Of a stretch of 64,000 nucleotides of DNA, positions 10,298 through 56,493 are shown piece by piece. The stretch's first letter is position 1. Each line of letters starts with the position of its first letter. Position numbers and translations under genes: made by a program. Source of the DNA: a virus. Under the pieces are notes generated by a model, which was not told the origin of the DNA, did not search any database, and saw only the letters and a program-made list of their open reading frames with translations. The stretch lies in IMG/VR virus record IMGVR_UViG_3300043429_000212, positions 1 to 64,000 of that record; one strand, written 5' to 3'.

Positions 10298-10659
10298 CAC
10301 TACCTCCTTCGCTTTAGGCAAGCCTCTGCCAAAGCCAGGGGTTGGGTGATCCCCCCTGTCTTGCTCTGTCCTTCCTGGATGGAACCAAAGAAGAACTGTC
10401 TTCCTCCGTAATGCCTGTCATCCTCTGTATCGGATGCTGACCCATTGAGCAGGTGGGTAAGTCCTGCCGGCTGGTCCCTGCCGCCCCTACATCACCCTGT
10501 ACGCATCGTTTGCTGCCTGTGCTGGAGGGCACATGCAGCCCGGTCCCCTGGATCACCGGCGTTGACAGGCTCGGGCACATGCTCTGGCCCCGATGAGGTG
10601 TTTCTTGGGTTCGGCCCATGCAGGCCATCTGCTAACGCGCCCTGACGATCATCTGCACT

Positions 10660-10728
10660 GAACACCCCCGGCACCCGGAGCCAGAGGCTCAGTCTGGTTG
10701 TCCTGGGGTGAGAGCCCCGAGGGTGTTC
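10660..10728. other. cloverleaf-like inverted-repeat structure, RNA or cruciform
   Basis: An outer stem GAACACCC (10660-10667) / GGGTGTTC (10721-10728) encloses three short hairpins: CCGG-CAC-CCGG, AGCC-AGA-GGCT and GGGG-TGAGAG-CCCC. The arrangement recalls a tRNA cloverleaf, but loop sizes, the T-loop and the anticodon loop do not fit, so it is not called as tRNA. Either strand could be transcribed. Confidence 0.4.
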
Positions 10729-10769
10729 GGTACAGACGATCAGACCATCCTACTGGATGTGATGGGGCT

Positions 10770-10797
10770 TTGCAAGCATGATCTACTCGGCTACACT
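10770..10797 (+). promoter_or_regulatory. possible sigma70-type promoter for a small RNA
   Basis: TTGCAA (10770-10775) and TACACT (10792-10797) are separated by 16 bp, each matching 4 of 6 consensus bases. Transcription would begin near 10803, exactly where a compact series of hairpins ending in a strong terminator starts. Support is the fit with that structure; the boxes alone are weak. Confidence 0.4.
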
Positions 10798-10802
10798 GGC
10801 TT

Positions 10803-10883
10803 TCGCTCAGTTGCTTGAGCGATCTCCCTCCTGTGGCGCTGGGTAGCGCCTTTGACCCCGGCGGACACCGGGGTCTTTTTTTT
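10803..10883 (+). ncRNA. candidate ~80-nt small RNA ending in a Rho-independent terminator
   Basis: Three perfect stems in a row: TCGCTCA-6-TGAGCGA (10803-10822), GGCGCT-GGGT-AGCGCC (10835-10850) and GACCCCGG-6-CCGGGGTC followed by eight T (10854-10883). Between the first two lies an unpaired TCTCCCTCCTGT (10823-10834), complementary to Shine-Dalgarno sequences (AGGAGG(G)). No plus-strand gene ends here, so the terminator has no coding transcript to serve. The RNA would be antisense to the last ~75 bases of rusA. Pairing with ribosome sites of phage or host mRNAs is an inference. Confidence 0.55.
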
Positions 10884-11289
10884 GCCCCGGCATCTCTGTG
10901 ACCGTGATGACACAGCGAGGGCACTCCTTGTCTTGATGCCAGTAGATGTGCTTCTCCTTGACCTGCCTGTCGTTTAAATAGAGCTTTCCCTGGAGGAGGT
11001 CCAGGATCAGGCTCTCGTCAAGGTCTGGACGTCGGGAGGCGTACCAGATGTGGATCTCTACAGATACATCTAGTGCCGTGGGGTGACTGGCCGGGGCGCA
11101 TTGCTGTTGAAACGACTCAGCGTAGGTCAGGGCCTTCTTGCTCTTGATGAGCCGGGACATGCTGCCGAACCGGACCAGCCTCCGGCTGTTGGCCTTGCTG
11201 GCGGGCTCTCCAAAAATTTCCCTTGTCTCGCAAAAAAGTGCTTGCATTCCTTCAGCACTAGCGATATGCTTTCTTCCGTCGCCACTCAC
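10807..11289 (-). CDS. rusA: RusA-like Holliday junction resolvase
   Basis: 160 residues from GTG 11289 (AAGGAG 7 bases upstream). The start of the core, GEPASKANSRRLVRFG (about 27-42), and the acidic centre RRPDLDESLILDLL...LYLNDRQV (86-110) match RusA: D89, D91 and D107 correspond to the catalytic aspartates. The lysine that follows the DLD motif in E. coli RusA appears to be replaced by Ile, judged by eye. RusA cuts four-way junctions in recombination and before packaging. The last ~25 residues are encoded opposite the candidate small RNA and its terminator and look non-conserved. Divergent from the exonuclease gene with 11 bp between start codons. Confidence 0.8.
   Translation of the reverse strand: MSGDGRKHIASAEGMQALFCETREIFGEPASKANSRRLVRFGSMSRLIKSKKALTYAESFQQQCAPASHPTALDVSVEIHIWYASRRPDLDESLILDLLQGKLYLNDRQVKEKHIYWHQDKECPRCVITVTEMPGQKKDPGVRRGQRRYPAPQEGDRSSN
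10854..10883 (+). terminator. strong intrinsic terminator
   Basis: Perfect 8-bp GC-rich stem GACCCCGG/CCGGGGTC with a 6-base loop and an uninterrupted run of eight T. It acts only on plus-strand transcripts, whereas the gene covering it (rusA) is on the minus strand. Confidence 0.85.
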
Positions 11290-11302
11290 AGGAGGTCTCC
11301 TT
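11290..11302. promoter_or_regulatory. palindromic Shine-Dalgarno shared by two divergent genes
   Basis: The 11-bp gap between the GTG of rusA (11289) and the TTG of the exonuclease (11301) is AGGAGG-TCTCC, running into TT. On the plus strand AGGAGG (11290-11295) serves the exonuclease with 5-base spacing; on the minus strand AAGGAG (11302-11297) serves rusA with 7-base spacing. There is no room for promoters, so each gene must be transcribed from inside the other or from further away. Confidence 0.75.
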
Positions 11303-12176
11303 GAAGATCACAAACAACCACGGCGCACCAGCAACGCTGGTCGCTTTGGCGAACAAGAACCACTACTCGAAAGGGGCAGCAGACTACTCGATCACCGAGC
11401 TTCTGTCTCCCCCTCGTGTTCGCCGTTTGAGAGAACGGCACGATGCTCGCCTAGAGCAAGATGTCTCCGACATGCTTTGGTCCCTGCTCGGATCGGCACT
11501 CCATGTGGTTGCCGAGCGGGCCTCTGCGGATCAGCATGTCACAGAGGAGAGGATCTTTGCAGAAATCGACGGTGTCAAGGTGTCTGGCGCCATCGATCTG
11601 CAAGAGATGACCGAACAGGGAGTCATCATCACAGACTACAAGTTCACATCCGCCTACTCGGTGATGAACGAGAAGAAGGAGTGGGAAGAGCAACTCAACT
11701 TGTACAAGTGGCTGGTCGAGTCTAGGAAGCGAATTCCTGTGATCGGTCTACGGATCTGCGCCTTGATCCGTGACTTCTCCAGGCATGACCGCCGAGAGAA
11801 CTACCCGGCCAGCCCCATCCACATGGTCGAGATCCCGATGTGGGACTCGGTCAAGGCCGAGGCGTTTGTGCGTGCCCGTTTACATCTGCACGCAGAAGCC
11901 AAGTTTGCCGATGCAATGGAAGAACCCCTTCCCCCTTGCAGCGACGAAGAGAGGTGGTTCTCTGAGACCACCTACGCCGTGAAGAAGGAGGGCAGGAAGA
12001 CTGCCGTCCGTGTGTTCAAGACGATTGAAGAGGCCAAGGAGTTGGCCCAGAAGGAGAAAGGCTATGTCGAAACCCGAGCAGGAGAACCCCGCCGTTGCAC
12101 CGGAAATTACTGCAACGTTGCCGAGTACTGCGATCAGTACCAATCAGAAGTCAGTGCAGGACTTGCTGAAACTTGA
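11301..12176 (+). CDS. PD-(D/E)XK exonuclease, RecB/Cas4-like
   Basis: 291 residues from TTG 11301. The nuclease core has VSGAIDLQEMTEQGVIITDY then K (about residues 94-113), giving the D...D-x-K metal site, and EEQLNLYKWL (about 129-138), the Q-x3-Y motif of RecB-family nucleases. The C-terminus has CTGNYCNVAEYC, a cysteine cluster like the iron-sulphur-binding end of Cas4/AddB-type nucleases. Placed directly before an annealing protein, it is the likely 5'-3' resection partner in a two-component recombination system like lambda Exo/Beta. The tail overlaps the next gene by 113 bases. Confidence 0.85.
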   Translation: MKITNNHGAPATLVALANKNHYSKGAADYSITELLSPPRVRRLRERHDARLEQDVSDMLWSLLGSALHVVAERASADQHVTEERIFAEIDGVKVSGAIDLQEMTEQGVIITDYKFTSAYSVMNEKKEWEEQLNLYKWLVESRKRIPVIGLRICALIRDFSRHDRRENYPASPIHMVEIPMWDSVKAEAFVRARLHLHAEAKFADAMEEPLPPCSDEERWFSETTYAVKKEGRKTAVRVFKTIEEAKELAQKEKGYVETRAGEPRRCTGNYCNVAEYCDQYQSEVSAGLAET

Positions 12177-12849
12177 TGTCTCCAAGTTCATCGAGAAGAA
12201 GCAGGGCCTGAGCTATGTCTCTTGGGCTCATGCCTGGGCCGTGGCGCTCAACGCCGACCCTGCCGCCAACTTCCATGTCCACATGTTCGATGAACGGTGC
12301 GTCATGTATGTAAACGGCACTGCGATGGTGTGGGTCGATGTGACCATGTTCGGCAAGACCGTCACCGCATGGCTTCCCGTGATGGATCACCGTAACAAGC
12401 CCATCCAGGATCCGGATGCGTTCCAGATCAACACGGCACTGATGCGGTGCCTCACCAAGGCATTGGGGTTCCACGGGATCGGACTCAACGTCTACGCAGG
12501 CGAGGATCTCCCTTTGGAAGTGCCGAGTGTGTTGGATGAGCAGCCTGAGAAAACTGCTCCCAAGCCCAGTATCAAGAAGGAGGCAAAGAAGGATCCTGTG
12601 AAGGAGCCCGTGCAGGATGTCCAGGAAGAGAAGAAGGAAGGAAGCAATGAAGATCCTCGGCTGTCTGCCGAGTTGTTCACCGAGTCCTTTGTGGAATACA
12701 TGATCGTGGTGAAGACTAACGACGGTTTGAACAGCTACTGGAAGAGCAATCAGTCCAAGCTGGACAAGCTGAAGTCTGGCTACCCCGATCTGTATGAGCG
12801 GTGCCTGTCTGTTGCCAAGGACCGGCGTCAACAACTGAGTAAGGAGTGA
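12064..12849 (+). CDS. single-strand annealing protein (DUF1071 family)
   Basis: 261 residues from ATG 12064 (AAGGAG 7 bases before). Residues about 55-160 carry the DUF1071 signature: LSYVSWAHAWAVAL, MVWVDVTMFGKTVTAWLPVM, then FQINTALMRCLTKALGFHGI and LYVYAGEDLP-like end (here GLNVYAGEDLP). These proteins are Rad52/Sak-like recombinases that anneal complementary single strands. A Lys/Glu-rich linker follows, then a small helical C-terminal domain. The exonuclease upstream and the SSB-like protein downstream complete a recombination cassette. The first ~37 codons overlap the exonuclease gene in another frame; a later start is possible. Confidence 0.85.
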   Translation: MSKPEQENPAVAPEITATLPSTAISTNQKSVQDLLKLDVSKFIEKKQGLSYVSWAHAWAVALNADPAANFHVHMFDERCVMYVNGTAMVWVDVTMFGKTVTAWLPVMDHRNKPIQDPDAFQINTALMRCLTKALGFHGIGLNVYAGEDLPLEVPSVLDEQPEKTAPKPSIKKEAKKDPVKEPVQDVQEEKKEGSNEDPRLSAELFTESFVEYMIVVKTNDGLNSYWKSNQSKLDKLKSGYPDLYERCLSVAKDRRQQLSKE

Positions 12850-56290: not shown

Positions 56291-56493
56291 GGTTTTTCCT
56301 CAATCTGCACCCGCCGTCCTTGAGGGAGGTCTGCCGAGTCAGTCGGCGGGCTGTGATGGTTCTCGGGCGCCCGTTCGGGCTATGCCCGAGCCTAACATAT
56401 TGGAGGACAAAAGAAAAGGCCCGCCGAAGCGAGCCTTGAGTAACCCGACTGGTGCGCTTCTTCGAGAGGCGTGTCGGGTGTTCTTGCGCTTGA
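56291..56493 (-). promoter_or_regulatory. 203-bp intergenic region downstream of the capsid gene
   Basis: Contains the capsid terminator (56409-56437) and a GC-rich inverted repeat CTCGGGC...GCCCGAG in front of the decoration gene. It is the largest gap in the virion operon and so the natural place for an internal late promoter; no certain -35/-10 is seen. Confidence 0.5.
56409..56437 (-). terminator. intrinsic terminator after the major capsid gene
   Basis: On the minus strand AAGGC-T-CGC-TTCG-GCG-G-GCCTT forms an 8-bp stem with one internal mismatch and a UUCG loop, followed by TTCTTTT. Partial termination here would lower expression of genes past the capsid gene relative to capsid. Confidence 0.75.

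Follow-up and report, generated by a model that had tools for sequence, protein, structure and literature searches.

Small RNAs that expose an anti-Shine-Dalgarno segment

Catalogues of base-pairing small RNAs (sRNAs) are poor for uncultured environmental phages, and we know of no case of RNA control of phage recombination genes. The alphaproteobacterial CcsR or "cuckoo" RNAs carry a motif of the anti-Shine-Dalgarno (anti-SD) type. They are tandem sRNAs cotranscribed with the gene of a DUF1127 protein (PMC10253847). The Caulobacter RNAs SisA-D have a 10-mer in common that bears an anti-SD signature, and the set of targets repressed by SisA is large (PMC12559287). The Burkholderia anti-hemB RNA is listed as ncS04 (PMC5688073). 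For phages, a review covers lambda OOP and aQ, both antisense RNAs, and 24B_1 (PMC12197685).

The locus considered here lies in a window of 64,000 nucleotides, which covers almost the whole of a virus record of 65,080 bases in IMG/VR. The genome is podovirus-like, with a portal 41-43% identical to portals of Planktothrix, Synechococcus, and Pelagibacter phages. On its plus strand, at 10803-10883, there is a candidate sRNA of ~81 nt. Its closest counterparts among phage RNAs are OOP, aQ, and 24B_1, since the candidate too would be a short phage RNA acting on phage genes. It differs from them in overlapping a recombination gene and in having a conserved open anti-SD linker that matches a second, divergent operon. 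With SisA-D it would share trans-acting base pairing through a short anti-SD segment, but those RNAs form a chromosomal sibling family with many targets, whereas the phage sRNA is single-copy with one conserved neighboring target candidate, and no sequence homology between the two is established. Set against the CcsR RNAs, the phage sRNA is single-copy in the window, has no Rfam match, and is seen with no DUF1127 gene; its neighbors with a Pfam match are rusA, an exonuclease gene, and the gene for Sak.

With the anti-hemB RNA, the likeness is a CUCC-rich unpaired segment, a hairpin, and a CCCCGG-type terminator. The CU-rich motif of anti-hemB is in the loop of its first hairpin, whereas in the window and its relatives it is in the linker between two hairpins, and the window sRNA does not have the stem that holds the anti-hemB loop; in the alignment to the window, the first stem of the anti-hemB model is deleted. 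Membership in that family (Rfam RF02837) was rejected at 22.2 bits against a gathering cutoff of 49.5. An unrelated gene-end terminator in contig L044 scores higher, at 25.1 bits, and the resemblance is terminator-driven. Across the 4227 families of Rfam 15, none reaches its gathering cutoff over 10803-10883, and in the whole window only abiF does, at 56443-56478.

As a class, sRNAs with an anti-SD seed are characterized by an accessible anti-SD segment, conserved complementarity to the start region of a target, a promoter with an intrinsic terminator, and repression of the target through the pairing, which for this candidate is a prediction. Here, the segment is predicted to be unpaired in all variants, complementarity to the ribosome-binding site (RBS) of the exonuclease gene is found in 8/8 relative contigs, and promoter and terminator are both conserved in sequence, the promoter match being weak. 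The candidate looks real and new, but a regulator of a familiar kind.

Layout of the candidate sRNA

A first-pass annotation, made from the letters of the window alone, had placed two hairpins, a linker, and a terminator with eight T at 10803-10883, and the sequence, its predicted fold, and a terminator scan all confirm that arrangement. The promoter-like sequence it proposed at 10770-10797 is also there, as TTGCAA (10770-10775), a spacer of 16 nt, and TACACT (10792-10797), with hexamers kept in the relatives and a position that puts the start at or just before hairpin 1. The match to sigma-70 is weak, 4/6 + 4/6, and for this reason a simple promoter scan missed it. Hairpin 1 (10803-10822, plus strand) is predicted by folding to pair UCGCUCAG with UUGAGCGA in the window; its conserved core is 6 bp, with an outer U-A and an inner G-U pair that are absent from some relatives. 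It is followed on the same strand by the unpaired anti-SD linker TCTCCCTCCTGT (10823-10834), hairpin 2 (10835-10850), and the intrinsic terminator (10854-10883), which has an 8-bp stem (10854-10875, 7 of the pairs G-C) and a run of eight T (10876-10883). No plus-strand gene in the window feeds this terminator, as the annotation had said.

Taken by itself, the fold of this one sequence beats chance by only a moderate margin (z = −2.5; 4/200 shuffles), and terminator-like sites are as numerous in the region as in shuffled DNA. Because the fold is only modestly better than that of shuffled DNA, the single window sequence is insufficient to settle the sRNA. What lifts the candidate above chance is conservation.

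Conservation among relatives

A search of IMG/VR with the RusA protein yields nine loci, eight of which reach the sRNA region, the ninth contig ending before it. The whole feature, meaning the −35, the −10, both stems, the linker, and the terminator, is kept in 8/8 of the contigs that reach the region, and an exact search with GAGCGATCTCCCTCCTGTG returns the same eight. The conservation set, window included, is 9 contigs with five distinct sequences in about four lineages; these are close relatives, with rusA 77-85% identical, and no more than four lineages stand clearly apart. In all relatives, the −35 TTTGCAAG is unchanged; the −10 reads TACACT or TATCCT, and the spacer has diverged over much of its length.

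All 20/20 pairs form in every sequence (100% of cells) and 0 are broken, with 4 two-sided changes (A-U to U-G, G-C to A-U, U-A to C-G, and A-U to G-C); in a control with the partners slid by 1-3 columns, there are 0 two-sided changes against the 4 in true register. In hairpin 1, an A-U pair becomes U-G in the L013 type. In hairpin 2, GGCGC/GCGCC becomes GACGCC/GGCGTC in L011. The terminator stem shows an A-U to G-C compensation in L013 with the T-tract retained. The loops of the hairpins vary in sequence and in length, that of hairpin 2 included, and the linker TCTCCCTCCTGT is identical in 9/9 contigs and predicted to be ~98% unpaired in most variants, with a mean P(unpaired) of 0.93-0.99 for ATCTCCCTCCTGT. 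The first-pass annotation had named a covariance comparison in related phages as a check, and loss of the stems where rusA is conserved as grounds for giving the sRNA up; the sRNA survived this comparison, its stems being kept in all relatives reaching the region.

Other stretches of rusA are as invariant as the linker, so the invariance of the linker says little by itself. Given how closely related the contigs are, and given the invariance elsewhere in rusA, the case rests on the compensatory changes and on the frame of promoter and terminator. From the alignments, we conclude that a putative plus-strand RNA at 10803-10883 is under selection. Very probably, a small clade of uncultured bacteriophages makes an ~81-nt regulatory RNA, the exposed middle of which can cover the RBS of an exonuclease gene. 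An alternative to a regulatory RNA is that the two hairpins and the terminator are just a structured terminator, or an element acting at the DNA level, near the divergent rusA. The weak promoter match would fit with that, as would the noncoding DNA adjoining the sRNA, which is likewise highly conserved, but a terminator with no plus-strand gene to feed it, conserved promoter hexamers, and compensatory changes of the RNA type, G-U included, speak against it, and we regard it as improbable.

The covariance model of the sRNA matches the eight contigs fetched with rusA and no other credible site, and within the window it matches just once. Searching with a profile of the rusA alignment brought in no additional relatives, and matches to the hairpin 1 pattern in other IMG/VR contigs come without the linker and terminator. 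An exact search with the core in the GTDB species genomes gave three 18-mer matches, all without flanking structure. At 78 viral loci bearing the neighboring structured element described below, there are only weak matches to the sRNA model, the best at 18 bits. The sRNA was not found outside its clade in IMG/VR or GTDB genomes.

Overlap with rusA

The rusA gene (10807-11247, minus strand; PF05866, 6.9e-06; PHROG 34) has its 3' end opposite the sRNA. That the RNA is antisense to the end of rusA, another point of the first-pass annotation, holds in the window and in all relatives by sequence comparison, every one of them having the overlap with full complementarity. This complementarity is what one would expect if the sRNA acted mainly in cis on the 3' end of rusA, by a perfect duplex that recruits RNase III or by opposing transcription that lowers rusA expression, with the anti-SD linker incidental. 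Cis pairing, however, tolerates any change and needs neither conserved hairpins nor an open invariant linker, and what is seen are stems with compensatory changes and a linker that matches a conserved RBS nearby. We consider an action mainly in cis to be unlikely.

The overlap also raises the matter of whether the conservation stems from the C-terminal tail of RusA (RHRREIAQATER) and not from an RNA. The frame of rusA does run straight across the sRNA region in three lineages (L002, L008, and L003/L007), which have similar tails. In the window, the frame is displaced by one base through the sRNA stretch and encodes a different tail protein, yet the DNA is unchanged. The RusA domain match stops at residue 116 of 146, before the part of the tail that is encoded across the linker, and conservation of the tail leaves the T-tract, the promoter, and the pairing of the stems unexplained. 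This account was already disfavored and is hardly credible.

Other uses of the stretch were rejected on inspection. The complement of the linker reads CACAGGAGGGAGATCG, as for the Shine-Dalgarno sequence (SD) of a minus-strand gene, yet neither the window nor any relative has a reading frame starting behind it. A leader peptide is unlikely, with the sole frame starting with TTG near the 5' end, having no SD, and varying in where it ends among the relatives.

The exonuclease ribosome-binding site as candidate target

The proposed target is CACAGGAGG (11287-11295, plus strand), the RBS of the PD-(D/E)XK exonuclease gene (11301-12176, plus strand; PF12705, 6.9e-08; PHROG 2139, 4e-54), which starts with TTG at 11301 and is followed by the gene for the Sak annealase, a single-strand annealing protein (12067-12849; PF06378, 2.5e-36). 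The prediction is a concrete one, of one 9-bp pairing with one conserved RBS. Among 88 approximate gene starts, this one has the longest perfect complement to the linker (9 nt) and ranks fifth by energy, with some of the starts above it looking mis-called. The starts at 1710 and 49210 are strong and likely true calls in the window, but their complementarity is lost in the relatives, where 49210 has no AGGAGG despite 93% protein identity. The complement at the exonuclease RBS is kept in 8/8 relative contigs checked (in one with 8 nt): CACAGGAGGTCTCC-TTG is retained in 7/8, and L018 has CACAGGAGATCTCC, with a single G to A. The string CACAGGAGG-TCTCC-TTG is conserved although the leader upstream of it has diverged. 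As judged from these alignments, the exonuclease start is the only candidate target conserved together with the sRNA.

For the duplex of linker and exonuclease RBS, −18.0 kcal/mol is predicted, and for the 16S tail at the same site −11.5; net of opening both RNAs, the value is about −9 to −10 kcal/mol, and −7 in L018. Six of the nine target bases come free, because any anti-SD pairs with any strong SD, and the conserved CAC and TCTCC around the exonuclease SD could serve the mRNA itself. The exonuclease gene keeps its TTG start among the relatives, and its SD is within AGGA-GGUC-UCCU, which can form a small hairpin. In 11242-11300, there is also a promoter-like TTGCAT-17-TATGCT, the TTGCA of its −35 being common to the sRNA promoter.

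Sequence comparison establishes that the structure and the complementarity are conserved. What we infer beyond this is transcription, pairing in the cell, repression, and a link to rusA, as follows. The phage would encode a base-pairing sRNA of ~81 nt, transcribed independently from its own host-type promoter, with a 5' end just upstream of hairpin 1 and a 3' end at its own terminator. The linker, held open between the hairpins, would present 5'-UCUCCCUCCUGUG-3' and pair with CACAGGAGG, the RBS of the exonuclease-annealase operon ~420 nt downstream on the same strand. The pairing would keep ribosomes off this RBS, so that initiation is blocked and exonuclease synthesis is limited. The rusA mRNA, because the sRNA is perfectly complementary to its 3' end, would be a second target or a sponge, which would link the expression of resolvase and exonuclease. 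We favor an independently transcribed base-pairing sRNA that represses exonuclease translation through its linker, and hold it to be rather probable.

The first-pass annotation had gone further, to an RNA that masks ribosome sites or bridges to ribosomes. Comparison of the relatives bears out its core, an anti-SD-exposing phage sRNA antisense to the end of rusA, and masking is plausible at one conserved neighboring target, the exonuclease start at 11301. Bridging through the linker is unlikely because its CCUCC is the same kind of sequence as the anti-SD of 16S rRNA, and two CCUCC segments cannot pair. Masking on a global scale was examined by asking whether RBSs favor C or AC before AGGAG. 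C is found there in 8/35 RBS-like sites against 43/121 sites elsewhere, so the extended complement is not enriched in phage RBSs, and this is an argument against general masking. The 3' end of 16S rRNA is GAUCACCUCCU; it resembles GAUCUCCCUCCU, which is behind a hairpin, and the linker contains CCCUCCU. These likenesses could suit a broad SD-masking RNA, in which the linker would compete against 16S rRNA for numerous mRNAs of host and/or phage and so help to shut off host translation. The lack of enrichment counts against it, as does the amount of RNA required, since a substoichiometric 81-nt RNA could hardly titrate all SDs, and we think such a role quite unlikely. A long shot is to read the RNA as a compact mimic of the 16S rRNA 3' end (a hairpin, then GAUC-CUCC) that the phage uses in trans, to time the exonuclease-annealase recombination operon, and in cis on rusA, so that a single RNA would balance the recombination enzymes encoded on two divergent transcripts.

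The abiF match

The abiF match (RF03085, minus strand) scores 37.7 bits, just above the cutoff. It comes right behind the likely major capsid gene, ahead of a terminator, and is mostly missing at the same site in relatives L170/L171. No Abi_2 protein was found in the virus record. The match could be an acquired decoy against AbiF-type defense, or chance.

A neighboring structured RNA family

Following the conservation upstream led to a second RNA element, at ~10335-10647 on the minus strand, between rusA and gene 9986. It has a branched fold of ~265 nt, 5' CCGUCAGGGCGCGUUAGC...CCACCCUUGG 3', with strong covariation over 58 distinct homologs, a set that leaves out the clade of the window, which is divergent; single positions in its helices show as many as four or more types of pair. 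As for the strand, the G-U pairs point to the minus strand in the window, and the energy is −98 against −87 for the reverse complement. At least 119 stretches of viral contigs carry the 23-base core CGTCAGGGCGCGTYAGCNRATGG, and examples of homologs are L042:386-650, L044:4021-4260, and L019:5001-5054. In L044, the element has a scaffold-like gene on one side and, on the other, the promoter of a capsid-like gene, these gene identities being assigned by eye. There is no match to it in Rfam 15, none in plasmids, and only one in the INPHARED phages, to an uncultured podovirus. The element is independent of the sRNA, because there are other carriers without the sRNA. It is probably the most novel thing nearby, and the family may matter more than the sRNA.

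In this phage clade, the structured RNA is immediately preceded on its 5' side by a long near-perfect inverted repeat at 10648-10745 (GATCATCTGCACTGAACACCC / GGGTGTTCGGTACAGACGATC); many other carriers have a T-rich terminator-like stretch in this position instead. The copy at L110:3402-3460 is without the middle, having GAACCCGA joined to TCCACCCTTGGGG, and L055/L058 have tandem partial copies in which CGTCAGGGCGCGTCAGC is repeated. Possibly, these copies are clues to how the element moves or works.
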